From Craterostigma plantagineum (lineage: Eukaryota; Streptophyta; Magnoliopsida; Lamiales; Linderniaceae): a DNA stretch of 64,000 nucleotides. Below are positions 15,308 through 60,790 of the stretch, in pieces. A model generated the notes under the pieces. It was given only the letters and a program-made list of their open reading frames with translations, was not told where the DNA came from and made no database searches. The position numbers and the translations under genes are program-made. Each line of letters starts with the position of its first letter. The stretch's first letter is position 1. The DNA lies in the NCBI GenBank assembly GCA_027422505.1, contig JAPQWV010000743.1, positions 184,715 through 248,714 on the forward strand, given 5' to 3'.

Positions 15308-15312
15308 AGCAT

Positions 15313-19183: not shown

Positions 19184-19191
19184 ATTGGTCG

Positions 19192-29637: not shown

Positions 29638-29639
29638 TT

Positions 29640-29651: not shown

Positions 29652-29695
29652 GGGTTACTCAAACGACGGGCCTAACAAACCTGAGTTAAGATCTA

Positions 29696-31533
29696 ATGGC
29701 TTCTTCGAGTTTTGATGTTTTTGCAGAGTGACAATCCTATTCTAGGCCACCACTCTTCGATGGAACAATCTATGCTATATGGAAAAACCGTATGAAGGAA
29801 TTCCTCTTGCTACTGACTATGACCTGTGGGATATCATCACGACTGGACCTCACAATCCCAAGAAGCGGATGGAACTCCAAAGAAAGGTTCCGAGTACGAT
29901 GCGACAGACAAGCGAGGAATATCCTTGAATGCCAAAGCTAAGAACATGATCGCCTGCGCGCTTACAAGAGAAGAATACAATCGTGTGAGTTCATGCGAAT
30001 CTGCCAAGGATATGTGGGACATGCTTCAAGTCACACATGAGGGAACCACTCGAGTTGTACAAGAAAGAATAGCCCTCTTAACTTACCATTACGAGCTGTT
30101 CAAAATGGAGGACAACGAGACCATAAGCCATATGTACGCGAGATTCATGAACATCATCAATCAAATGTTCTCGTTGGGAAAGAAAATACCGGACTGTGAG
30201 AAAGTGCGGAAAATACTGAGATCTCTTCCAAGAGAATGGAATCCCAAAGTAACTGCCATCTACAAAGCAAAGGACTTGGACGAACTTTCCGTGTCAGAAC
30301 TAATCGGGTCTCTTACCATCTACGAGATGACTCAGATCTCCATCAAAGAGAAACCAACCGTCCGAAATCAACCAACGTTGCCTTCAACACCGAACAAGGA
30401 AACGATTCAGAAGGTGAAGAAGAAACTGAGGAGGAACTAATGGAGCAGATTGCCATGCTGACCAGAAAGTTTGAAAAGTTTCGGATGAAAAGAAAGTTCA
30501 AGGGAAACTCCAAGTTCCAACCGAGGAACAGGGGAATATCGTCATCCGGGAACAACGTGCAAAAATGTTTCAAGTGCAACAAGCAAGGCCACTTCGCCTC
30601 AAACTGCCCGATGGAAAATGGTGACAAAAAGGTAAAGAAGCAGAAAGCCATGGTTACTAACTGGGAAGAGGCCGAAAGTGAAGAGGAGGAAGATCTCGCT
30701 ACATGGCCAATGATGATGATCAGGTATCAAATTCATCCACTATTAAGAAAATATTATTTCTGAATGAATTATATGCTAGGCAAGATGAATCTCATGATAA
30801 CGCTTCCTCAGTCCCTGAAGTAGATGAAAAGAAAGAGATGTTTGAAATAATCCAAAACGCAGAAAGAAGGATTAAGTCGCTGAACTTACAAGTAAAAAGC
30901 TTGGTTAGACAACGCGATGACGTAGCTAGAGAGAAGCATCAAACGGATCTAGAAAATGAGCGCCTGAGAGCCGAACTAGAAACTCTTAAGGAAGAAAAAG
31001 CCCTATGTAATTGCGGAACTCTTAGAAAGAAAGAAAATATATCTAGAGACATGTCTGTTCTTAAGGACTTCTTAGAAGGAAAATGTCGCACTAATGATAG
31101 ATTTATTGAAGGACAACAAAATCTTGACATGTTACTCAGTATTCCCGCTAATATTGGAACATCAGGACTAGGATATTCCATGACACATGAGCATGTTGCA
31201 CCACCTACTGTTAGAAAACCTAAGTGTTTTTCATGCGGCCGTCAAGGTCATTATGCTAACCACTGTTTTCTGAAGAGAGCTGACAAAGCTAGATATGTCT
31301 GGAGGCCAAAGAAGATTCCTGAAATCTCTAACACTGACCAATCAGTGTTCAAGAGATCACAGTCTGTAACACATGATATATCACGTGTGAACAGAAGTTA
31401 TTTCTCTACTAACCAGTTAGGAACCAATCAAAGTTGGGCACCTCAGAAAAGAAATGATTCATGTAGGTACAAAGAAGAAAATCCAGCAAGAAAAACAAGT
31501 GGTACCTCGACAGTGGGTGTTCACACCATATGA
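29696..31533 (+). pseudogene. Element B gag with two zinc knuckles, frameshifted
   Basis: ATG at 29696 begins MASSSFDVFAE, followed by a stop, then RPPLFDGTIYAIWKNRMKEF. The UBN2-type gag core is at 29826-30440 (CESAKDMWDMLQVTHEGTTR, VVQERIALLTYHYELFKMED, DCEKVRKILRSLPREWNPKV). In the next frame (30236-30763) come an acidic linker and the first CCHC knuckle CFKCNKQGHFASNC (30566-30606). A third frame (30703-31533) holds a coiled-coil-like stretch (RRIKSLNLQVKSLVRQRDDV) and a second knuckle CFSCGRQGHYANHC (31225-31266). A coiled coil plus a second knuckle is typical of the large Sirevirus gag. At least two frameshifts and one stop break it. Confidence 0.88.
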
Positions 31534-34500
31534 CAGGCGATTGCAGTAAGTTTGTGTCGGTGAAAGCATATGACAGAGGATATGTCTCCTATGCCGACAA
31601 CACAAAAACTAAGATTATTGGAGTTGGAACTGTAGGTAACACTTTACATACTACTATAGATGACGTATGGTTGGTTAAGAATCTAAAACATAACCTTATT
31701 AGCATTAGTCAATTATGCGATAAGGGTCATAAAGTTACTTTTCAAAATGATAAGTGTGTAGTTAGAAATGATGACAAGGTTCTATTCAGTGCATCTAGGG
31801 ATAGAAATATCTATTGCATAACTCTTGATGATATCACTGACCAAAATGTCAAGTGTTTAGCAGTTACACAGGATAACACCTGGTTATGGCACAGACGCCT
31901 AGGACACGCCAATATGGAATTACTGTCTCATATCACAAGCAATGCACTGGTACGAGGTGTTCCTGACACAAAGTTCGTCAAGGACAAAACATGCAAGGCA
32001 TGCCAAATGGGCAAGCAGACCAAGACATCGTTCAAAAAAAGAATGTGATATCTACATCTAGACCTCTGGAATTACTACATCTCGACCTTTTTGGTCCTGT
32101 TCAAACGATGTCTCTGCGAGGTAAAAGATATGCCTTTGTCATTGTTGATGATTATTCCAGGTATACTTGGGTGATATTCCTTGCACATAAGAATGAGGCA
32201 CTAGATAACTTTGCATCACTGGTGAAGAGACTAGAAAATGAAAAGAAATGAATCTGTGTAGGATACGTAGTGATAACAGACTGGAATTTGATAGTAAGTC
32301 ATTTGCATCATTCTGTGATCAGTACGGTTATAGTCATAACTTCTCTGCCCCTAGAACTCCCCAACAGAATGGCGTAGTTGAACGTAAAAATAGGGTATTA
32401 CAAGAAATGGCTAGATCTATGTTACATGAGTATGATATTCCTAAACAGTTCTGGGCGGAAGCTGTCAGTACAGCTTGCTATGTGTCTAACCGTGTCTTCT
32501 TTAGGCCGATATTAAAGAAAACTTCTTATGAATCTGGCATGGTAGAACTCCAAATATAAGTTACTTCCGTGTGTTTGGATGCAAATGTTTTATCTTGAAC
32601 GATAGAGATAAGAGAGGAAAGTTTGACTCTAAGGTTGATGAAGGGATATTCCTTGGTTACAGTCTTCACTCTAACGCATATCGTGTTTATAATAAGAGGA
32701 AGCTGACTGTTCAGGAATCCATACATGTTACTTTTGATGAGATACCTAATGCAGATGCTACTGATGAGGAAGGTATAGATTTGCCATGTGCAGATTTACA
32801 GGTTACTAAAGACGATAACGACGATATTCCGGAAGACGAAAATGTAGAGACACTGGAACCAGAAGCTGATGAGCTGCAACCTAGAAAATGGAAACACGCT
32901 TCCAGTCATCCAACAGATCAAGTGATAGGAAATATCAGATCTGGAATCAAAACTCGAGCAACTATACGAAATCAAGATACGGATGAATCTCATGATGTAC
33001 TACTTTCAATGATGGAACCAAAGACAGTCCATGAAGCTTTGGATGATATATCCTGGGTCTCTGCCCTGGAAGATGAGCTGGCTCAGTTCGGAAAGAGCCA
33101 AGTGTGGACACTCGTAGAGAGACCGGGTGAAAAAATCCATCATAGGGACCAAATGGGTCTTCCGCAACAAACTCGACGAACATGGTAATGTCACAAGAAA
33201 CAAAGCGAGGTTAGTTGCAAAAGGTTATTCCCAGGAGGAAGGTATTGATTTCGATGAAACTTTTGCTCCGGTAGCTAGATTAGAGTCTATACGTGTCTTA
33301 CTTGCATATGCATGTTTTAAACGCTTTAAACTTTTTCAAATGGACGTAAAAAGTGCATTTTTAAATGGCTTTATAAATGAGGAGGTTTATGTAGAACAAC
33401 CACCGGGCTTTGCTAGGGAAGATTTTCCAAATCATGTTTTCAAATTGAATAAAGCATTATATGGCTTAAAGCAAGCACCTAGGGCATGGTATGAAAGGCT
33501 AAGTTCTTGATTGACATAGGATTTTCGACTGGAACTATTGATAACACGATGTTTATTAAGTATGAAGGTGATCACATGATACTGGTCCAAATATACGTTG
33601 ATGATATCATATTTGGTAGTACTAATATCCTTCTTTGCGAGGAATTCTCTAAGTCTATGCAGAAGGAATTTGAGATGAGTTTAATGGGTGAGCTGAACTA
33701 CTTCCTTGGGTTGCAAATAAAGCAACTTGACGATGGAACTTTCGTATCCCAGACGAAGTACAACAAGGAACTGCTGATAAAATTCGGGATGAACGATTCC
33801 AAAGCGATTTCCACTCCCATGCATCAGACCACCAAAATAGACAGTGACAAATCAGGTACACCAGTTGATCAAACAGAATATCGAGGTATGATCGGAACCC
33901 TTCTTTACTTACCTGCTAGTCGCCCTGATATTATGTTTGCTGTTGGTATGTGTTCGAGATATCAGTCTGACCCTAGGGAATCTCACTTAACAGCAGTTAA
34001 GCGTATACTTAGATATATCAAGGGTACTGAAAATTTTGGTCTGTGGTACTCTCATACGGATGAATTCCCATTAATGGGATATTCCGCCGACTATGCCGGC
34101 TGTAGGGAAGATCGGAAAAGTACTAGTGGAACTTGCCAATTACTTGGAAATTCCCTGGTAACTTGGTCTAGTAGAAAGCAAAATACTGTTGCCCTCTCCA
34201 CAACCGAAGCTGAATATATGGCCTTAGGAAATTGTTGTCAATAATTTCTTTGGATGAAACAAACCCTTAGTGATTTTGGGTTAGGTTATGACAAAATTCC
34301 TATTATATGTGATAGCACTAGCGCCATTAGTATTACTAAGAATCCCGTGTATCACTCTCGTACTAAGCATATTGAGGTTAAACATCATTTTATACGAGAC
34401 GATGTTCAGAAGGGGAATATCAGTGTGGAATTCGTAAGAACAAATGATCAGCTTGTTGATATCTGCACAAAACCCCTAATTGAGGCAAGATTCTGCGACA

Positions 34501-34553
34501 TCCGTGATCGACTGGGAATTATCGAGCTAAATAAGGTTAGTAAATCTGCCTAA
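31497..34553 (+). pseudogene. Element B pol: protease, integrase, RT, RNase H (frameshifted)
   Basis: The protease motif DSGCSHHMTG is at about 31507-31540. GAG-pre-integrase TWLWHRRLGHANMELL and CKACQMGKQTKTSF lies at 31870-32035. Integrase: LHLDLFGPVQTMSLRGKRYA, VDDYSRYTWVIF, RIRSDN, TPQQNGVVERKNR (32040-32560). [53 protein letters not shown] with YVDD at 33594. RNase H: EDRKSTSGTCQLLGNSLVTW, LSTTEAEYMALG, HIEVKHHFIRDDVQKGNISV (34080-34550). Frames break near 32040, 32250, 32560, 33130, 33510 and at a stop near 34242. Motifs are readable and close to consensus, so decay is recent. Confidence 0.92.
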
Positions 34554-35098
34554 TTCTATCATTTACTCTAGGTTATTCTATTTTAGATAGAAATCCATAG
34601 TTATCCTATCTTAAGATATTCATTCAGCCCTTAGAATATTTCCGTGGATCAGATCTTTTCCTTAAGTGTAATTCTCATATTTTAGGAAGAAATTCGTAGT
34701 TATCCCTTCCAAGACATTCTTCAGCCATCTAGTTTATTTTAGGAATATCCGATCTTCTGGATCTGTCCTTGAATGTGATCAGGTTGTTTTAGGAAGGAAC
34801 TCATAAGATATCTTTCAATTCTTTCAGTTATTTTAGGGAACTCATTTATTTAATATATATTCCTATTCAGTCCAGTCACATCCCTTCCTTAATTATGAGA
34901 TCCCATCAAATCAGTCCGATATTTCTGACAGTTTTCCACTCTCTACTTTGAAATTTCAAATTTAAAATTTTGAAATCCATCCTTATCCCTTCCAAAAATT
35001 AAACCGACTCCATTCCTTTAAAAGATCCAAACCGTTCTTCAACCTTCATCATTCAATCATCTTCTTCAAATTTCTCCTCGACCTTCAAACCTTCATCA
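34554..35098 (+). repeat. Pol to env-like spacer of element B, with degenerate repeats
   Basis: Three imperfect copies, about 115 bp apart, of a block beginning ATTTTAG(G/A)(A/T)AG(A/G)AA and containing ATAGTTATCC, ATTCTTCAGCC and a TCCGATCTTCTGGATC-like part lie at about 34570-34850. It is non-coding and probably leads into the env-like reading frame. Confidence 0.5.
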
Positions 35099-36662
35099 AT
35101 GGCAAGAACTTCCGGATCCAAAACTGTTCTTCTCGAATCATCCAGCCGTAAGCGCAAGGAACCCACGTCAGACGAAGACTTATCCGATGCCGCTCCAGAC
35201 TCATCCACGCCAGTTTCACCATCAACCACTCCTGTCCGAAAAACTCGTTCAAAAGCCAAATCAGTTGAGAAAGGACCATCTCCCAGTAAAGCTCCCAAGA
35301 AGAAGAAGAAGAAAGGCAAGAAAACAACCCCTGTGAAATCACCCGAGCCTGAAAAATCTCTCTCGAGTCAAGAGAATGCTGAAGAAATTCATGACGAAAC
35401 CCACAAATCTCGCTCTAGAAGTCCAACGCCAAAGGAAACCCATAAATCTCCTTCCCCACTTGATAGGGCCTCGCCGTCTCCACAACTATCTCCAAAACCT
35501 TCAAATATCCCATCTATTGATCTGTCCAAACCCAGTGAGATCCCAGTCGAAATGCTTTTTCTGGAAGAAAGCAACCGCACTACCTATAAAAGCTTCAGCA
35601 ACATAGATATAGCTCGCGGTCGCGGAGTTGCATTCGACAAGCTACCTCCTAGAAACGTTATCACATGGCTTAAGGACTATGGATGGCAGCAATTCCTGAG
35701 GCTCAACCCACCCTTCTACCCTGAAGTCGTCAAACTCTTTTACGCCAACTTCGACTACGATGAGTTCGAAGGGCATATCAACATCCGTTCCTATGTTCTC
35801 GGTCACAAGATCGCGTGGACCGTTCAGAAGATGAATGCTATGCTAGGAGTTGCTGATGAAGGCCTTTGTCATTACGACATGAATGATTGGTGCCACGCTG
35901 AAGAGTTTGACCTCAGTAATGTCCTTCGTACCCTCTGGAATACCCGCACAAAGCCCCGTTTCTCAGACGGTGAAGCACTGAACCAGCTCCCTATTGACTT
36001 CTTCTTCCTGCACAAGCTGCTCAACATGACCCTCTGGAGTGCCAAAATAGGAAGTGGCGGCCACTCAACAAGATGAACTTCATGAGCACCTTCGCGGTCT
36101 ACATGGTATCCCAGAACCTCAAGTTCAACCTAGGATATGTCATCATGAAGCATATGATCCAGGCTTTCGAAAGCAAAGACAAAGCGCTGCCCTATGGCAC
36201 GCTGCTCACTCACTTGTTTGAGTGCGAAGGTATTGTCCTGCCGCCGGGGTTGGGAAGACACATCCGTCCACTTCGTGAACCAAGTGACCTTGAAGCGCAT
36301 GGGATTCACTTCACAAAGAGCCAAGGTTGGTTTAAGGCCAAGGAAAATCGATCAGTGGATAGCGCCCAGAAACGGTCGGCTGCAAATGGGAAAGCGAAGG
36401 TCAAAAGCGACGAGGACGATGACTACGAGGATGAGCTGACGTAGGGAAGGCAGGAATCTCCATGTTGTGCCGCGATATCTCCGATATCAATGCTGATAAT
36501 CAGAAGTGCTTCCGTAAGGTCAAAGAGCAGTATACCGAGTTGTCGCTGAAGCTGTCCAAGCTCTCAAAGCTGGTCAAGAAATCCCTTCCTAAAGCCGCCA
36601 ATTCTGAGACATCTTCAAGCAGTAGGCTGCTCCGCATGATCCACGCTCTTAGTTGCTCCTAG
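35099..36662 (+). pseudogene. Element B env-like region (putative plant transposon protein domain), frameshifted
   Basis: The first open part, 35099-36076, starts MARTSGSKTVLLESSSRKRK. It has a Ser/Pro/Lys-rich disordered N-terminus with a strong basic run (PKKKKKKGKK, nuclear-signal-like), then a folded region RGVAFDKLPPRNVITWLKDY, LNPPFYPEVVKLFYANFDYD, IRSYVLGHKIAWTVQKMNAM, DFFFLHKLLNMTLW. The next frame (36073-36444) continues MVSQNLKFNLGYVIMKHMIQ, LPYGTLLTHLFECEGIVLPP and an acidic end. A last piece (36462-36662) is a Lys/Leu helix. This is the conserved domain of the extra reading frame after pol in Sireviruses, sometimes called env-like. I see no signal peptide or clear membrane segment, so an envelope role is not supported by the sequence. 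Confidence 0.75.
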
Positions 36663-37002
36663 GATTTTCTGCTCTATTAGTATCGTTTTTAGGTCTTAAG
36701 TGTGCCTCCCGCCTTTTTTTTATGATGAAGGGGGAGTAGTAAGGTAAGTACTAGGCGGTTAAGGTCTAGGTATATTGGTGGTTGGTGTTTAGGGAAGTTC
36801 GTTGAACCCTTATCTATATAATATTTGCTTTTATGATATATCCTTGATGCTTCTATGCGTTTTCGATATTTTACTCTGATCTCCGGATATATCTGTGCTA
36901 ATTTCTAAATCTTACACTCAGATACTTAACTGTGAAAATTGACGTGTGTGAGATTTCTTAGCTGAAATGATTATATGATTGCGTGAATCACGCTTGGAAA
37001 AT

Positions 37003-37315
37003 GCGCACTTAGGCAGGGGGAGCTCAATCACGGGTAAATTTTGAATTTTGTACTCAGGATATAACGTAAAAATGACATGATATGTCTGCACTTAGACAGG
37101 GGAGCAAACTCATTCATGATATATCTTTGCATGTCATATAGATGAATGCACTTAGGCAGGGGGAGCAAATAGGTATCATACGTGATTAGGTAATATCGTA
37201 TGCTCTTATGCAATTATGGAATACTTAGACATATGCGCTAGGACTTGAGAAATCGAATATGCTTACATGCGTATGTGCTGCATCAATTACATGTCATCAT
37301 CAAAGAGGGGGAGAA
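37003..37315 (+). promoter_or_regulatory. Multiple polypurine-tract-like blocks before the 3' LTR of element B
   Basis: The block GCACTTAGGCAGGGGGAGC occurs at about 37004-37022, again as GCACTTAGACAGGGGAGC at about 37088-37107, and again at about 37144-37165. The PPT adjoining the LTR (GAGGGGGAGAA) is at 37305-37315. Repeated PPT-like blocks upstream of the 3' LTR are a known Sirevirus feature. Confidence 0.7.
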
Positions 37316-39010
37316 TGTTGACCTTTTTGGTCCATGCATGTTAGAGAGTTTTGATGAACGATGTAATTGTAATGTCGATAGGTCTATAAATTAAGCAATT
37401 CAATTCATGATTAATGAAATGTCTAAAATATTCGATCTTGCATGATATATGAGTTTAAACTGATTAAATTGTTGAATATTTGATCCGCATATGATTCTGC
37501 GATCTGTTGATGTGACTATGTGATCGCATGTTATAGATAGCCCATATGATAGGATATATCGTATTGTGCTATATATGGAAATAATGCATGAGATATCCTA
37601 CTGAGTTATAAAAGGAAAATATGCTGTTTATATATGGAAAGTGATATATCCGTTGATATTTGCTTATTCCTGGACGAAAATCACCTATACGATTCTTGCA
37701 TGCTTTCCACTGAATTAAATGTGCTATATTGAATTAATATCTTTCCTTATGCTGATTGAATTATTACATTTAGGAAAGATTTGATTCGATTGACATTGTG
37801 GATAAGATGCTACTAGATGGTATACGCTTTAAACGGATGAGATCTCTGAAATAAGGAAAGTTCGGTCATGATTGATAAATTGAATTTAGTATGCTCTGAT
37901 ATGATTTATGTGCTAAACATGGTAAATATATTGATTAAATGCTATGAGCTGTATATGAAAAACGTGCTGATGTGATGCTATCTTGTGTGATATATTTGGA
38001 AAGTGAATCTGGACTGATTTACGCTACAAACAGATAGCAGGGAATCACTTATGGAAAGTTCTGATATGGTTATTATATACGAAATGCTTGAATATGCTTG
38101 AGAAAGAAATTGTGATTTTATATGGAATATAATCATGCTTAAATGTGCTATATGACCGTTGTGATGATTAATTAAGAGCATGATCTATATGGTATGATTG
38201 ACTCGAATATTACATGGAAACTATACTTGATTTGGTGATTATTATATGATTTGACTTTCCATGTAAAGTGCTGTTTGAAAAGAATTATATATGAGCTGCA
38301 CTTCAGATTTTCAAGGAAATCTAGAATTTGCGAATATAAGCCCACGAGAGATCCTTGAGCAGAAACTGACAAAGAGATTCCTGAGTTCCCATTTGCGATA
38401 GCTTTCTGCCTTACTGAGCGTTAACTTGCGTATCCATCACTGAGCGAGTGATTAATCAGATATTCCATCATCCCCTGCCATACATTCTGTCTTCGGACGT
38501 GTTGTCTTCGGACGTGAGGAATACCAAGGAGGCAAGGTCGACGTTCACGCACACGTGAAGGGAAGGACGAGTTCGGGGGCCCTTCGGTAGTGAGCTGGTC
38601 TGTCGGGATCAGGAGATTCTGAGGAACGAAACTCGGCGTGTGGTAACCTAGTGTGTCTAGTGTTCGACTTGTTTAGGTTGTGTATTGGGCTAACCAATCA
38701 GTTTTGTATCCAGCTACGGTGAATTATAGTGATTGGTTAAACTCTTGGGAAGCAAATCGCAAGGAGAGGAGTAACCCCCAGTTGGGGATATAACCTCTAT
38801 AAAAATCTTGTCTCGCATTTACTTTTCAGTCATTTCGTTATCGCTGTGAGACAGACCCGAAACACATCCGACGGTACTAGGATATAACTGGCATACTCGT
38901 CACAATATCATTAGCATATCTAAGTCACCACACTAAGGATTTGTAAAAAGAAGCATAAAATTTTATAAGCCTAATTCACCCCTCCCCTCGTAGGCACATT
39001 TATATCTTCA
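37316..39010 (+). repeat. Element B 3' LTR (1,695 bp)
   Basis: It matches 27963-29637 and starts TGTTGACCT. It has a small extra duplication near 38495-38515 (a repeated TGTCTTCGGACGTG-like word) and a shorter C-run. It is followed by the target duplication ATAGC. Confidence 0.94.
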
Positions 39011-43994: not shown

Positions 43995-44546
43995 TATAAC
44001 GTTTAATGGAATACAAAATGGTTCGATTTTATCTGGTTATTGTGTTGTGATAGATATCAACTCTTGACATTTATGAGCGGATTAAAGTAGAAATTTGAAC
44101 AACACCCTAAAAATAATGTCCAAGAATTAAATGAAACGTGACCCACTTTCGTCTCTTAAGATCGTCAAAGAAATTTACTGTTGCATTATCTAAATCTCAT
44201 GAATGAAAAGTAGTATGTGATTCAAATCTATCAAATAAGTTACTTAATGAGCCTTTTACAAACATACAAGTGACCGAACTTAGTAGATTATTGCACCTTG
44301 TCAGCAACTACAATTGCACAGTTTAATTATGTTCCAACTGCGTGTAATTGAACAGTCGACGATGTTTATTCTGGCCAAAAAAAAAAAAAGCATTGGACTT
44401 TAGAAACATTTTTGTTAAAGATAAATTTTACCTTGCAGCAACATGGACAAATGACTTAAACATCAACACTATATGAAGCACGCTCGAATGCGTGTGCCCC
44501 ATTCATAAGTATATAATTTTATTTATGGTACAAAAATTTTATATAT
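43995..44546. other. Intergenic stretch before element C
   Basis: No gene is seen; there is an A-run at about 44377-44389. Confidence 0.5.
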
Positions 44547-45345
44547 TGTTAATCTTGACCATTCAGCATTGACAATGTTGGGGTAACATTCTAGCCAACA
44601 TTTGTTGGCCGAGAATGTTCACTTTCTCAGTTTTATCTTTCATGCCCAAAACTAATCTTGTAATGACGTGGCATTTTTTCTAGTGTTGAGCAGGACTTCT
44701 TCAAAGGATGGAACGGATCAAACCGCGTGGAAGAAGTGTAGATTAGCTAGAGCGAAAATAGGAGTGAAGCATGCTAAAAATAGGGAGCTTGGAGAACAAG
44801 AGAAGACTGAGTACTTGGAGCTGACCAAGTCGAGTCCCAACGGTCACTAACGGACCAAATCCACTTAGTGGACGTTAGTGGACGTTGTGGGAGGTTGCCA
44901 AGTCATTTGGACAAGTCTTTCACGAGTTGAAGACATATATAAGTCGAAGACTTAACCATTTGAAGGGACGACGAACACTGAGCGAAAGTTAGAGCATCTC
45001 AGAGCAAGAGTTATTTATTTTCTAAGTCTAGCTTTTAGAGGTCGTGAGATCTTGTAGGTTTTAGAATCCTTTCTGATTCGTTCCGTTTGCTAGATTAGTG
45101 TTAAACTATCTTTTTCGATAGTTTGTAATCCATATTTCTAGTGGATTTTTAAGCCGTGAGGCTCGCAGCAAGTTATTGGACTTGCTGCACAAAAACATCA
45201 TTTGTGTTCGTTTCGTTTCGTCGCTAAGTACTTACAATTCCGCTGTGCGTTCAAAAGAGTGAGAGTGAGTGTTAGCCTAACATCGTGTCCAACATCAGTA
45301 TACAACTTAGCGTTTTTACATCCATTGTGTACGGGACCCCCTTCA
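44547..45345 (+). repeat. Element C 5' LTR (799 bp)
   Basis: It starts TGTTAATCTTG and ends ACCCCCTTCA. It contains two copies of the 27-bp motif (44575-44601 and 45269-45295). A 60-codon open frame at 44668-44850 is identical in the other LTR, but this only reflects LTR similarity. Confidence 0.93.
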
Positions 45346-45348
45346 AAG

Positions 45349-45361
45349 TGGTATCAGAGCC
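45349..45361 (+). other. Primer-binding site of element C
   Basis: TGGTATCAGAGCC, three bases after the LTR end, matches initiator Met tRNA. Confidence 0.85.
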
Positions 45362-45399
45362 AACGCTTGACGTTATTAAGCGCTTAACATCCTCTACAA

Positions 45400-47421
45400 T
45401 GGATATTACCAGTTCAAATAATATCGGCAAAGTCCCTGTTCTTGACGGCACCAACTACGCGTATTGGAAGGTCCGAGTTCGTCAGTGCATCAAGTCAATT
45501 GACGTGCGAGCATGGGAAGCAGTACTTCACGGGTATACTCCACCAAGGACAGAACCAGATGCAGATGGAGAGGTCGTCGACAAAAGCCGGTCGAACAATG
45601 GACGGTAGCCGAGCGAAGCCTAGCAGAGTTCAATGACAAGGCACTCAACGCCATCTTCTCTACGGTGGATATCTTTATGTTCAAGATCATCCAGAATTGT
45701 ACAACGGCTAAGAATGCGTGCTTGAGAGGTACTGTGAAGGTGACACAACGGTGCGAGAAACCAAACTACGCCTGCTTCTTAGTCAATTTGAAAACATCAG
45801 AATGAAGGAAGACGAGGACATCACGACGTATTTTGGAAAGCTCTTAACCATTTCCAGCGAGTGTGCCAGCCTAGGAGATCCTCTGTCGAACAAGGTATTA
45901 AATTCTAAAGCTATTCGTACACTAACTGAAAAATTCAATGTGAAGGTTTCAGCTATCGAGGAATCACACAACCTAGCCACCATGGACTTCAACTTCTTGA
46001 TGCACATTTTGAAGAATTATGAAACCAATCTTGAAGTCCAAAAGAGGGCCGCACGTGGTAAGAGTCTCGCACCGGTCACCCAACCATCCAAGGATCTGAT
46101 CGAGGTCGACCCCAGTAACGATGAAGACATGGCCATGGTCGTAAAGAAATTTGCGAAGTATTTCAAGAAGAAGAATGTTGTACAAAATGTTGGCCCAACA
46201 TTCAGAAAATGCCAAAATGCCAAGGCTGAACCATCTTTAGCTCCTCCGTTCCCTAAACAAAAGCCTTTTGGGAGGCTAGACGGAAAGCCAAAGAAGAACA
46301 TCAATTATGAGGCAACCAGATGTTACGAATGCCAAGGTTGGGGCCATTTTGCCAATGAATGCGCAAACACAATTCGCAAGCGTGGTGTTAAGGTTATGTG
46401 GATCGACCTCTCAGACGATGAAGATGAAGATGAAGAGGAAGAGCCTAAACAATCATCAGTAATCATCCAGTCATTTTCTGACGACGAAGATGATGAAGAT
46501 CAGCAAATCGGTCTTACAGTGGTAACTGATGTTGAGCCAACATCTGACTCAACATCGGTAAAACATATTATTTTTTATTATGATGATTCAAACTGTCTTG
46601 ATGGTGTTTTGAGTTGTGATGAAACAGAACCTGAAACCGAGGGTTGTGAAGATGCCTTCAAGCTGCTGCCCACGCAATACGAATTGGAAAAGTCAGACAA
46701 CACACAACTCCGTGCCGCGGTGAAATTGTTGGCCGAGGAAAATGAGAAAAATGAAAAGGTTATTGAGGGCTTGATGGATGGCATGAACAAGTTGGAAGCC
46801 GCATTGACCCGAAAGGACATGGAGATAGACACGCTTCAAAAGCGAGTCAATGAGGCCGACGAGACCTTTGCTAAGTGGAACAGGAGTAAATCCAGCCATA
46901 AAAAGGTATTATCTCTTGGTATTTATTACAAGCAAGGTCTAGGATATAACGGTCAGTCTGCAAGTGATAGTACGAAACTTCTGTCTCATGTGAAGCCTAA
47001 GATTGTTTTTGTTAGAGATCAATCTGTGAATGACAAAGATGAAATTGTGAATCCTAAGAATAGTCCCGAGCATGTGACCCTAAAAAGTGATGATAAATCC
47101 TTTATGTGTGAACATTGTAAGAAGTTAGGTCATGTAAAGTCATACTGCTGGAAATTGAAGCGGGAGATTTCTGCAAAAAAATCGATGTCGGCTGAAATGT
47201 CATCCAACATATCGGTCAACATTGAGAAATCAGTGTTGAAGGGTATGTCTGGAAAAAGTTCAGCTGGCTCAGCTTCGATGTCTAGCAAACAGAATGCGGT
47301 TAAGTCATCTAAGAAAGCTTGGATCAAGAAATCTGGACATAAATGCCTTGTAGTATATACCTCTTTGCGAGCTAACGTGACAGGTTCATGGTACTTCGAT
47401 AGCGGGTGTCCCGACATATGA
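45400..47421 (+). pseudogene. Element C gag with coiled coil and two zinc knuckles, frameshifted near the start
   Basis: MDITSSNNIGKVPVLDGTNY begins at 45400, with YAYWKVRVRQCIKSIDVRAW as the usual gag start. The frame breaks near 45590 and again near 45720. The remaining 45718-47421 is one long open frame: LRLLLSQFENIRMKEDEDIT, LNSKAIRTLTEKFNVKVSAI, the first CCHC CYECQGWGHFANEC (46321-46362), an Asp/Glu-rich stretch, a coiled coil (LAEENEKNEKVIEGLMDGMN), and a second knuckle CEHCKKLGHVKSYC (47106-47148). It ends at the protease start WYFDSGC, after which one base is missing. Two clear copies of the 27-bp motif lie in its variable acidic regions (46175, 46529), plus a diverged one at 47196. 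Confidence 0.9.
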
Positions 47422-50369
47422 CGGGTACCAAGGAGTATCTCAGTGATTATAAGCCTTTAAACAGTGGATCTGTGACTTTCGGAGGTGGTTCTAAGGGTCG
47501 GATTCTCGGCAGAGGCAGATTGAATGTGCCCGATCAACGTACTCCATGTAGACGGGCTTGTTGCAAATCTGATTAGCATAAGCCAGCTGTGCGATGATGA
47601 CCTTGAGGTAAGGTTTAATAAGGAGTGTTGTGAAGTTTTTACCGATATTCTGTTCTAGTAATGGCGGGTAAGAGATCTAGCGACAATTGTTACCTAGTTG
47701 GTGACAAATCTGGTGTGAAGGACGTGTGTCAACTTTCAAAGGCCGAGGACGATGTTGTGCTTTGGCATTACAAATTGGGCCACGTCAGCTACAGAACATT
47801 GGAGCAACTTATCAAACATGACGCAAACAGAGGCATTCCGAAGCTTAAGGAGTTTGGTAAGGTTGTTTGTGAGTCGTGTTTGAAGGGTAAGCAAAACACA
47901 TGTTAGTCACAATGTTGACCAACAAGCTTCCCAACATTTTAAAACTGCTCACTGTTTTCAATTAATTCACATGGATTTGATGGGTCCTATGGAAGTTGAT
48001 AGCATAGGAGGTAGGAAATATGCGTATGTGCTCGTGGATGATTTTTCTAGATATGCATGGATTTTCTTTCTTAGGGAAAAATCAGAATCGTTTGAATTCT
48101 TCAAAAATTTTTGTGGTATGATTCGAAACAATTTCAGTGCATCTATCTTTCGAATTAGGTCTGACCATGGTAGAGAGTTTGAGAATCAGTTCTTTGATGA
48201 ATTCTGTGATAAGAAAGGCATTGTTCATGAGTATTCATCTCCTAAGACGCCCCAACAAAATGGGGTTGCCGAAAGGAAGAATAGGACTTTACAAGAGATG
48301 GCACGTGTTATGTTACTTTCTAAAAATGTGTCTAAGCGTTTTTGGGCTGAAGCTTTGCATACCGCATGTCACATTTCAAATCGTTGTTCTTTAGGCATGG
48401 TACAAAGAAAACTTCGTATGAACTGTTGAATGGTAAGAAGCCTACGGTTAAATACTTTCATGTCTTTGGATGTTTTTGCTACATGTTGAATGATCGTGAA
48501 TATTTGACCAAGTTTGATTCGAAAAGTGATAAATGCATCTTCCTAGGATACTCGTCTAATAGTCGTGCTTATCGTGTTTATAACTTGCGTCTGAAATCTG
48601 TTCAAGAATCAGTGAACGTCGTATTTGACGATGCTACTGATCTTAGCAACATGCCTCCTCAAGTTGATATTGCAGATGTTATACAAGCGGGTAACGAACC
48701 AGAGGAGCCTGCGGATGACAATGTTGAGCCAACATTGGACTCAACATCTGAGCCAGAACAGAACGAAGAAGCTGGTCCCAGCGGAGTTCGACGTGATCCG
48801 CCAGCTAAGATTCAGAAAGATCATCCCACTGATCTTATTATTGGAGATGTAAACGAAGGAAGAAAGACCAGAGTCAAACCTCGAAAGGATTACAAGACTA
48901 TGGTAAGAAATGTATGCATGAACACAGTATACACTGAGGTACGATTTAATTGTTTTGTTCTGAATTAGAACCGAAGAATGTCCTTGAAGCTCTTAAGGAT
49001 AATTTCTGGAGAAATGCGATGCAAGAGGAACTCTTGCAGTTCGAGAAAAACCAAGTCTGGACCTTAGTCCCACGGCCGAAAGACATTAATGTCATAGGCA
49101 CGAGGTGGATCTTTAAAAATAAATCCGATGAACTTGGTAGGGTGGTTAGAAACAAAGCACGTTTAGTAGCTCAGGGTTATACTCAAGTAGAAGGGATAGA
49201 CCTTGATGAGACGTTTGCTCACATTGCTAGGTTAGAGTCGATTAGGCTTTTGTTGGCTTAACATTACATTACATTACACCAAATGGATGTTAAGTGTGCT
49301 TTCTTGAATGGGTATATTGATAAGGAAATCTATGTTGAAAAGCCTAAAGGGTTCGAAGATCCTCATTATCCTAACCATGTTTAAGCTGCAGAAAGCATTG
49401 TACGTTGAAGCAAGCTCCTCGAGCTTGGTATGCGAGGTTAGCAACATTTCTACTTGAGTTCGGTTTCACTCGAGGTGAGGCGGATCAAACTCTTTTTGTT
49501 AAAAGGGTTGGATCCGAGATTTTGATTGCTCAAGTATATGTTGATGACATTGTTTTGGCTCGAGCTCACAAGTTCTATTAGATCAGTTTGTGCAGGCAAT
49601 GAACACTACTTTTGAGATGTCGATGATTGGCGAACTAACCTATTTTCTAGGTTTGCAGATTAAGCAAAGTAGCGATGGGATCTTTATGTCCCAAGAGAAG
49701 TACGCGAAGAACACAGTCAAGAAGTTTGGACTGGACACGGCGAAGGTAATGAAAACTCCCATGGGTTCTACGCAAAAGGTAAGTAAAGATGATGTTGGGC
49801 AGAATGTTGACCCAACATTGTATCGTTCTATGATTGGCAGCTTACTATACTTGTCTGCGAGTAGACCTGACATAATGTATAGTGTTTGCGTATGTGCTAG
49901 ATATCAGTCTGAACCTAAAATGACGCATCTTAATGCTGTTAAGCGAATACTTCGTTATGTGAGTGGATCGTGTAGCCTAGGACTATGGTTCTCCAAAGAT
50001 ACTAATTTGAGTCTTGTAGGCTATAGCGATGCTGACTGGGCCGATGACGAGGATGACAGAAAGAGCACAAGTGGCGGCTGTTTCTTCCTAGGTAATAATT
50101 TGGTTGCATGGTATAGTAAGAAACAAAATTGTGTGTCTTTATCTACTGCTGAGTCCGAATATGTTGCGGCGGGTAGTTGTTGCACGCAATTATTGTGGTT
50201 GAATAGCATGTTATGTGACTATGGGTTAGAGTGCGAATCTGTGCTTATGTATTGTGATAACCTTAGTGCTATTAACATCTCTAGGAATCCCATTCAACAT
50301 TCTCGTACCAAGCATATAGACACTAAGAATCAGTTAGCAGACATTTTTTACGAAAGCATTGGATTCTGA
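47380..50369 (+). pseudogene. Element C pol: protease, integrase, RT, RNase H (frameshifted)
   Basis: Protease text runs from DSGC (about 47398) into TGTKEYLSDYKPLNSGSVTF. GAG-pre-integrase is VVLWHYKLGHVSYRTLEQLI and CESCLKGKQ (47750-47905). Integrase: MDLMGPMEVDSIGGRKYAYV, VDDFSRYAWIFFL, RIRSDHGREFENQFFDEF, TPQQNGVAERKNRTLQEMAR (47971-48429). RT: ELLQFEKNQVWTLVPRPKDI, NKARLVAQGYTQVEGIDLDE, YVDD at 49537. RNase H: DDRKSTSGGCFFLGNNLVAW, SLSTAESEYVAAGSCC, LMYCDNLSAINISRNP (50040-50340). The frame breaks near 47421, 48420, 48970, 49260, 49385 and 49560. The RNase H end after SRTKHIDTK is shortened, jumping to NQLADIF. A 27-bp motif copy is built into the RT to RNase H linker (49792-49818). Confidence 0.9.
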
Positions 50370-51541
50370 AAGGTTTTCGGACCTGAAGAAATCCATAGGT
50401 TTGCACATGTTAGTTTAAATGTTGGTCCAACATTTGGATCAACATAGCATATGTCGAATTTGATAGTTGCAGCTTTAATGTTTGGTTTAATATTCTATTC
50501 TGTTTTCCTGTGAAATGACTTGATTCTTCTTGATTGGTCCCTAAATGAACCCGATCCCTCTTTTATAGGCTCTTGGTAATACGTCCCTAGGTACACGGCG
50601 TTCGCTGTGACGATGTACTCTTTGCGACCAAAAATCCAATCCTTTTTGTGTATTAGCATGCTCATAAACTCTCGGCTAGATATAGGTATTTGGTAATAAG
50701 ATTCCTTAGGTACCCGGCATTCGCGGTGACGATGTATACTATGCGACAAAAAGCCTAACCTTGAGGCTGAGGGTATAAGGGCAGTGCATTAATTCCGTTG
50801 GATATGTGAGGTGAAAGGGTAGGAATAAAGGGAACTGATTTTGAGAAGGATTAAGCAGATAAGTCTAGGATTACGGAATTAGAATGTTGAGTCAAATGTT
50901 AGGGCAACATGTGTGACTGTCAGTTTGATATTGCTACATTTTGTGCTTTTTTCTTTATTCGTGTCTGCTTTTAGTACTATTTTTGTTAGTCTTTTGTGTC
51001 TATGTTTAGAAATCTCTCAGAATTACATTTTAAACTCGAAGAACAGCTTGTTACATTTGTCTCAAGTCGTCATCAACGTCGCTCAATCGGTTAGTATTTC
51101 TTGATTCTACCTTGACTTTTGACTTAGTTCTTTTGGTTGAATCATGATTCGAAGTGCTCCTATTAACTCGCATGACTTGGTCTCCCAACTGCTTTTGAGG
51201 TGCTCGCATGATGAATTAGTCTATTTACTATTTTTAGCTTCATGCTTTGAAAAATCATGACTTAATCTGATCTTATCCAGTCTAAGCGGTTTTTCTCCTT
51301 GTGCTCAACGGTTACTTTCGTGCCCATTAACTCCATGACGAGCAAAATTAACTGCAGTGACCGCTGTATCTAGCTCGATTTAAAAGTGGTAGATTATATG
51401 ATTATTTTTAACTTGTCATATCATCCCACTTGCTTCACTTCGATCTCTATCTCTAAAATTGCTCTCTGTGATCCGTAGTTCATTAGGGTTCTGTATTTCG
51501 CTCAGATTTTCTTCTTTGATTCACTTTTCTCAGCTGAAATC
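50370..51541 (+). other. Element C non-coding spacer between pol and the env-like region
   Basis: It holds two good 27-bp motif copies in opposite orientation (50419-50445 and 50884-50910). A short direct repeat is also present: TAGGTACACGGCGTTCGCTG at about 50588 against TAGGTACCCGGCATTCGCGG at about 50707, each followed by TGACGATGTA and GCGAC. No gene is seen. Confidence 0.6.
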
Positions 51542-53406
51542 ATGTCGAATTCTCCTTCTCAACCGAATGTTGACCCAAAATTCGACCCTAATCTCATTTA
51601 TCCAGTTCCTGTGCAAGTTATTCCAGGTCCGATGGACATCGTGGTGTACACTGGTCCTTTTCAGCCACTCCGGCCGGCCAGACCACCGCCTCAGACCACC
51701 GAAGAACAAGCGGCGCCACCGCAGCCCTCATCAGCAGACCCCCAACGGCGAACCCTAGCCAAGAACCCGCAGCGACGATGACAAGTCAAGAAGACGATGA
51801 TGTGCCACTGGGAACTCGTCTCCGATCACTCAAGAAACGGCGGCGAAACAGGGCTGAGGATGCTCTGCCGACCTCGTCTGGTGCAAACCCAGCTCCGACA
51901 GACCCAATTTCGACCGAGCCACCAGTGTCTGAACCATCGCAGGCCAAGGAAACCCCTGTTTCCGTGAACCCTCCATCATCCGACGAAATTCCGGCAAGAA
52001 AGGCGACGAAATCTCAACCAGGAACCTCCAAGAAAAAGAAGAAGCTCAGGCCAAGAAGTCAGCACCTATGCAGAAGAAGCGCCGAAGTGGTCGCATTCGC
52101 CGAGCGCTGAACCCTTCGTCAAATGCCGACGCCCCTATTGCACTCTCCAGCGATTCTATCGACACCATCGTTGATTCCACAACATACGACGGCGTCGACT
52201 CAGAGATCTCAGATGAGGACTTCAAGCTTTCAGGGGGAGAAACGCCGACCTCTGTCTCGGAGTCCTTCACAGCCTCAGACAAACCAGTAAGCCATGACGA
52301 GGAAGATGCCGACCTCGCTGAGACCTTAGAGTCTCTGAAAAAGAGATTGGAGAAGCGAGCTGGGAAGAGGCCAATGGAGAGTGAGAACAGACCCTCAAAG
52401 AAGGCGCGGACTGAGGAAACATCGCCCCCTAACAGCAGCCACCGTGTCGCTACACCAGTCCCTGGTAATGAAGATGTTGGGTCTGATGTTGACTTAATAT
52501 TGGAAGACTCAGACTGGGAGAGTGCACTGCCCAAACGCAAATTCTACCGCCCAGCCAACGAGGAGCTGTGGGAATCCCTGAGTCAGAGACTCTTGAGGGT
52601 GGAAAGGGTCGTGGATGTGGCTAGCTTCAGGAAGTACGGGGTGATGCAATTTTTGGACATATGGTGACAAGCTTAGGGACATACTGTGAGGAGAAGTCTC
52701 GTAAGTATGGGAAAGGTTTTTGAGGGGGAGGCTCTATGATTTCTCGTCTAGGTCGATTAATAGGTTTCTTCAGACCCCTGAAGTAGATATGGGATATGAG
52801 TATGATAACGATGCTGTGGTGAGGTTCATTACTGGGGGTAGAGTGACGAGATGCGAAGGGAATTGTGCAGGTAGTTCGCTTACATCCTTGTACTCTGTTT
52901 TGTTCAAGATAGGGGTGTGTAGTTGGTTACCTACATCTAATGAAGTTAGGGTGACTGAAAGCATGGCTCATTTGCTTTATGCACTGGGTCAGAATCTGCC
53001 TATAAATTGGGGGAAGTATATCCTTGATAACATGTCGAACCAGGCTGAGAAAGTAGGGAAGGGGATTCTCCCTTATCCCTCAATTATCTATTGGGTTCTT
53101 TTACAAGGAGGCTTTCAACCAACCCGGCGAGACTCAGTGACTACTCAACGCAGCCCTTATCCTGTCCAGCAGAACCATTTGGTGGGCTCAGACAGAGTTG
53201 TGGACTTACCCTGGCGCACCCCTGAACAGCTAGAGCACGATGTTGACCAAGATGTTGGGTCAACATTTTTGGCGGAACAGGCCCTTAAAATTCTGGAGGA
53301 GTCTATCTCAGCGTTGGTAGCTCAAAGAGATGCCTTAAGGAGGTTCATTTCTTCCCAAAAAGGGGGAGATAGGGCAGAAGGAAGTGAGAGCAGAGCCAAG
53401 AGCTGA
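51542..53406 (+). pseudogene. Element C env-like region (putative plant transposon protein domain), frameshifted
   Basis: Open parts in successive frames are 51542-51781 (Pro-rich, MSNSPSQPNVDPKFDPNLIY), 51778-52110 (Ser/Pro/Lys-rich), 52068-52667 (basic start MQKKRRSGRIRRALN, then acidic, then LPKRKFYRPANEELWESLSQ) and 52720-53406 (RGRLYDFSSRSINRFLQTPE, GSSLTSLYSVLFKIGVCSWL, ESMAHLLYALGQNLPINWGK, LPYPSIIYWVLLQGGF). The layout (long disordered basic and acidic N-terminus, then a conserved helical domain, then a coiled tail) matches the element B region, although the sequences differ greatly. The frame breaks near 51780, 52090 and 52670. Motif copies sit at 51567 (partial), 52474 and 53240. 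No membrane signal is seen. Confidence 0.72.
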
Positions 53407-53881
53407 GGATCAAGGTGGGCCAAGCGGGGCAAAGACGGCGAAGGGGAAAGTGCTGAAGCAGGGGGAGAAAGAGTTAGTGAAGCAGAACAAGTTCAGACTG
53501 AAGAAAGAGCTGGAGTTGGAGCAGAAGCGGAAGCTGGTGAAGAAGCTAGAGGAGAACAAGAAGAGGAGTCGATCGATAGTCTAAACATTTAGACCTCGAT
53601 CTTTTGTGCATGCGCTCTTTTGTTTTTTTTTTGTGCATTACTACTTTGATTTCTCTTGTGTGTTTTTGTTTTGGACCATGTCTTTTATTTTGCAGATTTT
53701 TCAGGACCGCTTATGGCGTGTACTAATTAGTAGTACTTTGAATAGTTTTTAGTACTATTCTGTTTTTCGTCTAACTCTAACCATTTTTTGTTTGTGGTTG
53801 AGTTGATGTTGCCTTCAGGGGGAGTATTACTAAGGATAACTTCTGCTTTGGTTTTGGGAAGAAAGATAAAAAGGGGGAGAT
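53407..53881 (+). other. Element C 3' non-coding region and polypurine tract
   Basis: A Lys/Glu-rich open stretch (53384-53584) continues the env-like C-terminus in another frame. PPT-like blocks TTCAGGGGGAGTA (about 53814) and AAAAAGGGGGAGAT (53868-53881) lie before the LTR, again a duplicated PPT. Confidence 0.6.
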
Positions 53882-54691
53882 TGTTAATGTTGAGCATTCA
53901 GCATTGGCAATGTGGGGTAACATTCTAGCCAACATTTGTTGGCCGAGAATGTTCCCTTTCTCAGTTTTATCTTTCATGCCCAAAACTAATCTTGTAATGG
54001 CGTGGCATTTTTTCTAGTGTTGAGCAGGACTTCTTCAAAGGATGGAACGGATCAAACCGCGTGGAAGAAGTGTAGATTAGCTAGAGCGAAAATAGGAGTG
54101 AAGCATGCTAAAAATAGGGAGCTTGGAGAACAAGAGAAGACTGAGTACTTGGAGCTGACCAAGTCGAGTCCCAACGGTCACTAACGGACCAAATCCACTT
54201 AGTGGACGTTAGTGGACGTTGTGGGAGGTTGCCAAGTCGTTTGGACCAGTCTTTCACGAGTTGAAGACATATAAGTCAAAGACTTAACCATTTGAAGGGA
54301 CGACGAACACTGAGCGAAAGTTAGAGCATCTCAGAGCGGGAGTTATTTCTTGAAAGAGTTTTTCTTTTCTAAGTCTAGCTTTTAGAGGTCGTGAGATCTT
54401 GTAGGTTTTAGAATCCTTTCTGATTCGTTCCGTTTGCTAGATTAGTGTTAACTATCTTTTTCGATAGTTTGTAATCCATATTTCTAGTGGATTTTTAAGC
54501 CGTGAGGCTCGCAGCAAGTTATTGGACTTGCTGCACAAAAACATCATTTGTTTTCGTTTCGTTTCGTCGCTAAGTACTTACAATTCCGCTGTGCGTTCAA
54601 AAGAGTGAGAGTGAGTGTTAGCCCAACATCGTGTCCAACATCAGTATACAACTTAGCGTTTTTACATCCATTGTGTACGGGACCCCCTTCA
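53882..54691 (+). repeat. Element C 3' LTR (810 bp)
   Basis: It matches 44547-45345 with few substitutions and one insertion near 54349-54366. It contains motif copies at about 53910-53935 (one base deleted) and 54615-54641. Confidence 0.93.
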
Positions 54692-55350
54692 TGTATGATA
54701 TAATGAAATATGTAAATTAGTAAATAATTTATAAGGATTTAACTAAAATCAAATAAAAATTAAGAGATTAAATTATAACTTATACACGAAAATTGACATA
54801 CCAAATTGGAAGAGCAGTTATACTCTGGAATGTGTCCCAAATATATATATATATATAAATATATTGGGCAATTTTATGTGAACACCATAACAGTCTATGT
54901 GGCATGCCACGTCATTAATTACCTTAAATTAAAGATATAATAAACCTAAATTAGCCTAAATTAACAACGGCCGGATATGGGAGTTTAATTTTTTACTTTT
55001 TAACTTGTCGCAGTTTTTTAACAGGCGAGGGGCGATCGACAGCAGTAAGCGACCGGTGACTGGCGGCTATCGGACAACGGCAGGACATAGAAGAAAATTT
55101 TATTTTTAAATTTAGGCTAATTTAGTATTACTATATTTGATTTAATATAATTGACGATGCGGCGTGACACGTGGACGATGCTCACGAATGGTACCCACAT
55201 AAGCTGAGCATCATAAGACTACTCTATATATACATATATATCAACTCAACATAATTCAAGCCCACGATACATTTCAATTTTCTTTATGCCAATCAAGGAT
55301 AGTCCAAAAACAATACAAGGGGAAGAAAGTATAACAGAGATTGATGATCA
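54692..55350. other. Intergenic stretch with a TA microsatellite and a possible MITE
   Basis: A (TA)n run is at about 54841-54857. Between about 54870 and 55205, TTTATGTGAACACC..CCACGTCATTAATTA at the left and TAATTGACGATGCGGCGTG..CCCACATAA at the right are weakly complementary, perhaps an old MITE. The last part is 3' UTR of the GDSL gene. Confidence 0.45.
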
Positions 55351-59377: not shown

Positions 59378-60790
59378 TCAAAATTCCCGCCGATGATTCG
59401 CCGCCGGCGTCTTAAAGCTCGGCATTTTCTGAACTCCGATCGAATCAGGGTTAACCTTCCATATCTTCACCGACTTATCGAGGCTGCCACTGTACAGAAC
59501 ATGTCGCGAAATTACCCTTTTGTCCTCCTCCACGGCCAAGCACTTCACCGGCCCTTTATGCCCACTCAAAACCGACAAACAGATGTGATCCTTCCCATCT
59601 TTTCTCCACACGCATACGTTGGTATCCGCCGACCCAATGAAGAGCAGATTCCCCGCCGTCGCCAGGCAAAGCACGGCGAGCCTATGGCCCCTCAGAACTC
59701 CGCCGTGGGCGGGGAGCTCGTCCCTTTCCCAGTAGTTCACGAGCCCGTCCGACGAGCCACAGTAGAGCACGGTGGAGAGTGGGTCGACGGCCAAGGAAGT
59801 CACGGCGCACTCTTGCTTCAGAAGGGTTCTTGAAAAGCAGTGCTTCGTCCCTTTGTTCCACTGCTTCGGGGCGGCCCTCCTCCACTCCTTGACGGTGCCG
59901 TCGGCGGAGCCGCTGAAGACCATCCCGTCGAACCCCGAGACCACGGCGTTCACGGCGTCGTCGTGGGCGGAGATCGACTCCAGGCACTTCGAGTCGGCGA
60001 CTCGCCACACTTTGATCGTCCTGTCCCAAGAAGCTGAGTAGAGGAGGGCGCCGTCCTCGCTCAGGCTCAGGGAAGATATGGCGTCGACGTGCTTTATCCA
60101 TATGGCGCTGCGATTCCTCCTCGCTTCCACGTAGTTGCTGGGCTTGAAAGAGCTTTTCACCTTGGCCTTGAAGGTGGGCAGAGCCCCGACCGTTTGTGAT
60201 GGGCCGGGTCCTTCTTGGATACCTTCCATACCCGTATTTTGCCGTCTTGGTGGCCGGTGAAGATTCGGCCGTCGGCGATTACGATGGCCTTGACCAGCCC
60301 GAGTCGATTTGAAGCCTGAGAATTCCTTTTGGTTCTTCCAAACCCTAATGTTGGTGCTGTCCGAGCCCGTTGTAGAGGAGTTCGCCGGCGGTGGCTAGGG
60401 AATATATGTGGCCCTCCTCTCTTATGAGGGAGCCAATTAGGCGGTGTAGGGATGGGCTTCGTCGGCCGGCGTCGCTGCCGTGTGGTTGGTCACGGAGATT
60501 TGGACATTGGGGACGATGATGCTGCTGGTAATAATGACGATGGAGGGGATGATGCGCTTTGGTCCCATGACGGGCTTAGGTAGGGCGGCGATTGATCGAA
60601 CGTGGTGGTGCTGTGGTGGTGGTGCTGCGGCGGCGGGCTGTTCTCTGACGCGGTGCTGAATCTAAAGGATATGATGATGATGATCGTCTTGTTGGTCGGC
60701 GGTGGCGTGGAGTATGATGCCTAATGTCTGTCTTTTCGACGTGATTGTGTTGTTTATGTCGTTTTCTTTTCTTGAACTCTTCATATTATG
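59378..60790 (-). pseudogene. JGB: JINGUBANG-like WD40-repeat protein, frame broken in the N-terminal part
   Basis: The intronless minus-strand C-terminal part (60229-59378) is one open frame of 283 residues with five WD40 repeats: HVDAISSLSLSE..SASWDRTIKVW, AHDDAVNAVV..SGSADGTVKEW, ECAVTSLAVD..CGSSDGLVNYW, GHRLAVLCLA..GSADTNVCVW and GHKGPVKCLA..SGSLDKSVKIW. Upstream, the text of the first repeats is readable in other frames: [48 protein letters not shown] and [20 protein letters not shown]. Frame breaks lie near 60195 (one G missing), 60300, 60362 and 60493. The N-terminus is His/Ser/Pro-rich (PPPQHHHH); a possible start is ATG at 60790. JINGUBANG negatively regulates pollen germination in Arabidopsis; a similar role is inferred. 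The first frame of the open part (MEGIQEGPG) is not the true start. Confidence 0.82.

Follow-up and report, generated by a model that had tools for sequence, protein, structure and literature searches.

What could keep a short DNA motif in place along a whole retrotransposon, in its terminal repeats, its spacers and its genes alike, and what would read it? The question is raised by a 64,000-nucleotide stretch of the Craterostigma plantagineum genome (GCA_027422505.1, contig JAPQWV010000743.1, positions 184,715–248,714; hereafter the window), which includes a 10.1 kb long terminal repeat (LTR) retrotransposon with copia-type domains and an LTR pair, element C (44547–54691, plus strand). A first-pass annotation of the window claimed that a 27 bp motif of three hexamers recurs about a dozen times through this element. 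The pattern, ATGTTG-N3-CAACAT-N6-CAACAT, was scanned in both orientations, with the 18 hexamer bases scored. At up to 3 mismatches in 18 there are 16 matches in the 64 kb, every one within 44575–54641, against a mean of 0.10 and a maximum of 1 in 100 dinucleotide shuffles; shuffled sequence, the comparison that the annotation had proposed for its own claim, fails to reproduce the motif. Six copies are exact (46175, 46529, 48721, 49792, 50419 and 53240). At scores of at least 13/18, 32 positions are found in element C, merging into exactly the 15 loci listed in the annotation, while the 53.9 kb outside it contain 11 positions scoring 13 and none scoring 14 or more. As this corresponds to a chance rate of about two per element length at score 13, the loci at 47900 and 51567 (both 13/18) could be chance matches. 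ATGTTG/CAACAT is also the most over-represented hexamer of element C (40 occurrences, where 6.5 were expected and none of 200 shuffles exceeded 13), and 22 of the 23 exact half-site pairs counted lie at offsets of 9, 12 or 21. A search of all 5-mer dyads recovered the same spacings, with ATGTT/AACAT ranking highest (z up to 15.9) at offsets 10, 12 and 22. In the control segments of the window the four leading dyads were homopolymers or AT-rich (z up to 14.9) or a direct repeat of GACGA (4 copies, segment 1–9335), or else no dyad reached 4 copies. Chance or base composition as the source of the array is rejected by the shuffles, the hexamer excess and the dyad search: the array is real and far above chance. 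The 15 loci are as follows, scores being matching bases among the 18 hexamer bases.

44575–44601, plus strand: copy in the 5' LTR, 17/18
45269–45295, plus strand: copy at the end of the 5' LTR, 15/18
46175–46201, minus strand: copy in gag, peptide NVVQNVGPTF, 18/18
46529–46555, plus strand: copy in gag, peptide DVEPTSDSTS, 18/18
47196–47222, plus strand: weak copy in gag, in another codon phase, 14/18
47900–47926, minus strand: weak copy directly upstream of the integrase core, 13/18
48721–48747, plus strand: copy in the linker past the SH3-like domain, peptide NVEPTLDSTS, 18/18
49792–49818, minus strand: copy directly past the reverse transcriptase match, peptide DVGQNVDPTL, 18/18
50407–50445, both strands: non-coding copy in which four half-sites, the first being ATGTTA, make up a near-full palindrome, 18/18 on the plus strand from 50419 and 17/18 on the minus strand from 50407
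50884–50910, minus strand: copy in the non-coding linker, 17/18
51567–51593, plus strand: weak copy near the start of open reading frame (ORF) 3, peptide NVDPKF, 13/18
52474–52500, minus strand: copy in ORF3, peptide DVGSDVDLIL, 16/18
53240–53266, minus strand: copy in ORF3, peptide DVDQDVGSTF, 18/18
53909–53935, plus strand: 3'-LTR counterpart of 44575 with one base lost, 14/18 ungapped
54615–54641, plus strand: 3'-LTR counterpart of 45269, 16/18

Two loci lie in each LTR, two in the linker and nine in coding regions, so the placement in LTRs, non-coding spacer and genes that had been proposed is borne out. All 15 listed copies were recovered, and details at 45269, 47196, 50419 and 53910 had to be amended. 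The copy at 45269, given as full, does match the pattern but with 3 mismatches (54615 has 2), and the base loss reported for 53910 does occur in the 3'-LTR counterpart of the first site but that copy starts at 53909. The fit at 47196 is imperfect, and the locus around 50419 has a fourth half-site.

The anatomy of the sites was examined in ten non-redundant strong copies, five per orientation. The half-site proves longer than the hexamer, approximately RNYCAACATY (R, purine; Y, pyrimidine), with one symmetric rule around each hexamer. This flank rule fits at 55 of 60 positions in the ten copies and at 20 of 24 in the four non-coding ones, and having been derived from the same ten copies its P value is indicative only. 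Fixed inner spacing with variable spacer bases, as first described, is supported: hexamers are kept, while most spacers and the outer flanks differ, except that 46529 and 48721 are alike in their spacer letters too. Each site can be described as three half-sites, two of them inverted, their hexamers starting 9 bp from one another, and a third at +12. Symmetric half-sites occurring in both orientations suggest a DNA-binding multimer.

In the coding copies the choice of codons can be set against the peptide. The codon phase is common to eight of the nine loci (the six strong ones and the weak 47900 and 51567, that of 47900 being judged by the integrase frame downstream), and 47196 deviates. All six strong coding copies match the motif as closely as their peptides permit (P 0.00009 to 0.0013 each), values that overstate the case because the copies were chosen for motif match, and that are not a calibrated test of selection. 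Wherever paired-form peptides occur in sense frames of 45346–53882 they are specified by motif codons (6/6, five in ORFs and one non-coding). None of the Pfam matches found overlaps a coding locus (the start of ORF3 lay outside the scan), and the 49792 site lies within a stretch conserved among pol proteins. These data show that the DNA motif, not the peptide, is the regular feature of the coding copies, which are better accounted for by a signal in DNA or RNA than by a peptide; copies in the LTRs and linker cannot be peptides, which weakens the peptide reading further.

The organisation of element C, on the plus strand throughout, is as follows.

44547–45345: 5' LTR, beginning TGTTAATC and ending CCCTTCA
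45349: primer site TGGTATCAGA, just past the 5' LTR
45718–47421: gag ORF (PF14223)
47971–48429: integrase core piece (rve)
48366–48968: SH3-like domain and linker piece (PF25597)
49590–50369: end of reverse transcriptase and downstream pol piece (PF07727)
51542–53406: ORF3 region in broken pieces, with PF20167 in piece 52720–53406
52232, 52723, 53361, 53460 and 53817: further AGGGGGAG octamers
53872–53879: AGGGGGAG as terminal polypurine tract, its first base 10 bp ahead of the 3' LTR
53882–54691: 3' LTR, placed by self-BLAST, Kimura two-parameter (K2P) comparison and LTR ends

The octamer AGGGGGAG placed 10 bp before the 3' LTR is, according to Bousios et al. (PMC2829016), a mark of all Sireviruses studied there. 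Element C has six such octamers, three of them, besides the terminal one, within 0.6 kb of the 3' LTR; one other is found elsewhere in the window (41590), apart from those of a neighbouring element, B, in which the octamer is likewise placed at the polypurine tract with several linker copies. Element C also has copia-type gag and pol domains (PF14223, rve, PF25597 and PF07727) and, as in env-type Sireviruses, a further ORF that follows pol and precedes the 3' LTR. It is classed as a putative Sirevirus-type copia element by octamer, domains and extra ORF. Its LTRs (44545–45345 and 53880–54691) are 96.2% identical by self-BLAST, and because their K2P divergence is 0.017 and the reading frames are split into pieces, we take element C to be a fairly young, decayed copy. 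The ORF3 pieces include several basic, lysine/arginine-rich runs, and PF20167 is matched at 54.6 bits (cut-off 45).

Element B provides a natural comparison. It is related to element C (60% identity over 78 integrase residues, 54% over 248 pol residues), and it has no copy of the element C motif even at four mismatches. It has dispersed motifs of its own.

27963–38989, plus strand: element B, Sirevirus-type, with LTRs at 27963–29607 and 37316–38989
37306: AGGGGGAG octamer, 10 bp before the 3' LTR; four octamers in all, all within 0.6 kb
29916–29923, plus strand: motif GGAATATC, all 12 window copies being in element B; others at 30533, 31172, 32173, 32434, 32645, 32823, 34078, 34414 and 34742, and in the LTRs at 29088 and 38459
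28197–28204, no strand assigned: motif GATATATC, 10 of 12 window copies being in element B; others at 28287, 31375, 33045, 34012, 36835, 36886 and 37118, and in the 3' LTR at 37553 and 37643

Copia domains are represented by PF25597 and PF07727, with the integrase found by tblastn; the sole piece tested before the integrase (30682–31530) gave no Pfam match, and PF20167 reached 36.7 bits, under the cut-off of 45. The ORF3 pieces of element C gave no tblastn match to element B. GGAATATC is the strongest 8-mer of element B (z 10.7 versus 6.8 for the largest of 150 shuffles) and is not self-complementary; six of its ten internal copies are in listed ORFs, where all three codon phases are used. A wider form, GRNATATC, picked after inspection of the data, has 33 sites in element B (27963–37315 counted), compared with a shuffle mean of 3.3 and a largest value of 10 in 200 shuffles. 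Five are in the 5' LTR, 19 in the span 29823–34600 and nine beyond; outside element B there are none in element C and 10 in 42.8 kb elsewhere. Neighbouring, related elements B and C bear different dispersed motifs. When each of two sister elements has a private motif along its length, unrelated to that of the other, self-recognition by sequence is the simplest account.

Elsewhere in the window, copia gag and reverse transcriptase ORFs lie on the minus strand in 9336–18670, and 1810–7266 contains direct repeats that measure roughly 0.1 to 1.1 kb and have diverged to 84–91% identity. The sequence GGCTGGCC/GGCCAGCC has seven window copies (20830, 20990, 21030, 25410, 25527, 25836 and 27301), six of which were counted as dispersed in 18671–27962 (z 7.4). 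A cytochrome P450 ORF (40590–41627, minus strand) lies between elements B and C, and a WD40-repeat ORF at 59378–60394 on the minus strand.

Repeated protein-binding sites within mobile elements have precedents in the Suppressor-of-Hairy-wing array of Drosophila gypsy and in the subterminal site arrays of TNPA and the Ac transposase. These occupy one non-coding block or the element ends, whereas the element C array also extends across coding sequence. A closer parallel is offered by the VANDAL transposons: according to PMC5735166 and PMC10398659, VANC proteins encoded by these transposable elements lift silencing over the element, and related elements use different motifs, VANC21 reading a short motif present at high density in its own elements (PMC5735166). 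Within the 64-kb window element C likewise has a short motif, dense in one element and rare elsewhere, which may be family-specific. VANDALs, as described there, are DNA transposons with a known protein, while here the element is an LTR retrotransposon and the reader a candidate only. By analogy, the motif copies may tentatively be regarded, in what we hold to be a possible reading rather than a probable one, as element-specific sites for a multimeric, sequence-specific DNA-binding protein. The reader would most likely be made by the element itself, with the nuclear-looking product of ORF3 as first candidate, and it would bind along the whole integrated copy and shield it from silencing as VANC does. 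A putative anti-silencing role of ORF3 could be proposed from the VANC parallel.

The spacing of the sites is suggestive of such a function. Each LTR-to-LTR period holds thirteen loci, whose gaps have a mean of 718 bp and a coefficient of variation of 0.25 (P 1.5e-5 under uniform placement), and with the strong sites fixed and the three weak ones placed at random the same evenness arose in a fraction of 9.5e-5 of trials. Several observations weigh against an element-encoded reader. The evenness depends on the three weak sites (P 0.06 for the ten strong sites alone) and may stem from domain linkers of similar period, because of which the spacing is taken as suggestive; in element B even spacing is absent (P 0.29). 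VANC21 sites are tandem, in one orientation and non-coding (PMC5735166), and those of element C are dispersed, in both orientations and coding at 9 of 15 loci. Excess 8-mers alone are no Sirevirus marker, because two control segments also exceed the shuffle range: 1–9335 (z 7.8) and 18671–27962 (z 7.4) have 8-mers above the shuffles of B and C, though the z of 10.7 in element B is well clear of both. In the copia-bearing segment 9336–18670, which lacks the octamer, the maximum is z 4.6, close to the mean of the B and C shuffles. The top exact 8-mer of element C (z 6.7) is over its own shuffles (largest 6.2) and under segments 1–9335 and 18671–27962, its motif being gapped. The best gag relative (Primulina, 30% identity, from a search returning 10 proteins) lacks the gag motif peptides. 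Regarding ORF3, its sole Pfam match is the "putative plant transposon protein" PF20167, and a single-sequence structure model of an ORF3 piece was useless (mean pLDDT 37.6). Finally, the sense-strand hairpins of the ten strong copies are slightly stronger than when spacers are permuted among copies (P 0.032), as an RNA function would predict.

The repeated motif (RM) boxes of Sireviruses invite comparison. In PMC2829016 an element has from 8 to 32 of them, with function unknown, 12 of the 13 published have a CGG-CCG core, and they are clustered in the LTR and linker, with a few at the start of env, and form CpG islands. The element C motif is like them, so described, in being short, dyad-symmetric, present in many copies, different between Sireviruses and located both in the LTR and ahead of the env-like gene. 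It is unlike them in its AT-rich core, its third half-site and its copies through gag, pol and ORF3, and the element B motif differs from them in being a single 8-mer. Instead of the palindromic CGG-CCG core element C has RNYCAACATY, with one loose CGG...CCG per LTR, and its loci, nine of the 15 being coding, are not clustered as RM boxes are in the upper LTR and before env. The annotation had held the motif to differ in sequence from Sirevirus palindromes, and it does differ from those listed in PMC2829016. A broader proposal, which we consider rather doubtful, is that Sireviruses would each carry a lineage-private address that extends over LTRs and genes alike, maintained through selection at silent sites and read by a fast-changing anti-silencing ORF3 (so far termed "env-like"), of which RM boxes would be one local form.

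Relatives of element C were compared as proteins (250 fetched in all). For the linker piece (48366–48965), the plus-orientation peptide was present in none of the best 120 of 135 proteins. The best 120 of 7987 proteins were fetched for the pol piece. The full minus-orientation peptide occurs in 5 of the 250, each at the 49792 site (P0016, P0017, P0019 and P0084 from Anisodus, and P0033). In Anisodus tanguticus (60–72% identical), four of five proteins among the best 120 of 7987 keep a motif-compatible peptide there, the fifth (P0014) being one residue short. This retention is weak support, because copia proteins at large conserve the 49792 stretch. The exact pattern was found in 10 stretches of viral contigs, one match each, which are read as chance; protein searches of viral contigs with the pol piece, the ORF3 piece and alignment A1 confirmed no relatives. 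Genome contigs under bacterial labels yielded two copia pieces, distantly related (42% and 36% identity) and lacking the exact 15-base core. These pol pieces (L011:3463–4203 and L012:3314–4078, in contigs labelled Corallococcus and Bryobacteraceae MAG) are probably eukaryote contamination. A literature query combining ATGTTG, CAACAT and retrotransposon gave no match, and no comparable array was reported in the titles and abstract starts searched, a coverage that excludes most subscription papers. In PMC11656987, CAACAT[GT]G is a k-mer whose weight is negative and whose origin is unknown.

Among alternatives to an element-encoded reader, a host transcription factor or chromatin protein may bind the sites, with the element exploiting it or the host recognising the element. 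Two sites per LTR could serve as promoter elements, and RAV-type AP2 domains bind CAACA. Promoter use leaves the many gag, pol and ORF3 copies unexplained, however, a silencing site kept at a cost in codon choice would be unexpected, and unrelated motifs in adjacent, related elements fit an element-specific reader better, so that a host factor seems unlikely. Similarly hard to favour is a role as RNA sites, in which hairpins and alternative pairings exposing the third hexamer would act in packaging, dimerisation or genome compaction. Measured against 600 random positions, local folding energy puts five of 13 sites in the lowest 3%, and besides the permutation result given above, none of 300 sets of random element spacers gave sense hairpins as strong as those of the ten strong copies. 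However, near-palindromes fold anyway, the random-spacer comparison also mirrors the R/Y rule, and the permutation effect is marginal, with P 0.13 for antisense hairpins. Folding is ordinary at 4 of 13 sites (45269, 47900, 50884 and 51567), and by eye, uncounted, hexamer changes have no clear compensation. In addition, the main element B 8-mer is not self-complementary, and a known RNA family as the identity of the motif was rejected, Rfam giving no match in 44500–54750 at gathering scores.

It is improbable that the array is a functionless relic, left when short duplications or template switches spread a 27-mer: the alike spacers of 46529 and 48721 would fit, but most other spacers and outer flanks differ while hexamers hold, and without selection it is harder to account for a codon phase shared by eight of nine coding loci across both orientations. 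Least credible is a repeated peptide, (N/D)VxPT, with the DNA motif as by-product, which the shared codon phase with similar peptides and the Anisodus proteins would favour and which is largely refuted by codon use (6/6 strong copies at the motif maximum), by identical DNA in the LTRs and linker, and by the two orientations, which give different peptides.

What the repeated motifs and the env-like gene of Sireviruses do was left open in PMC2829016 (2010), and sequence-specific anti-silencing, as described in PMC5735166 and PMC10398659, concerns DNA transposons, whereas element C is an LTR retrotransposon. Here the genes of such a retrotransposon have a motif written into them, and the element beside it bears a different one. 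If the reading in terms of an element-specific DNA-binding protein is true, synonymous sites of retrotransposon genes can hold a second code, which would matter for tests of selection.

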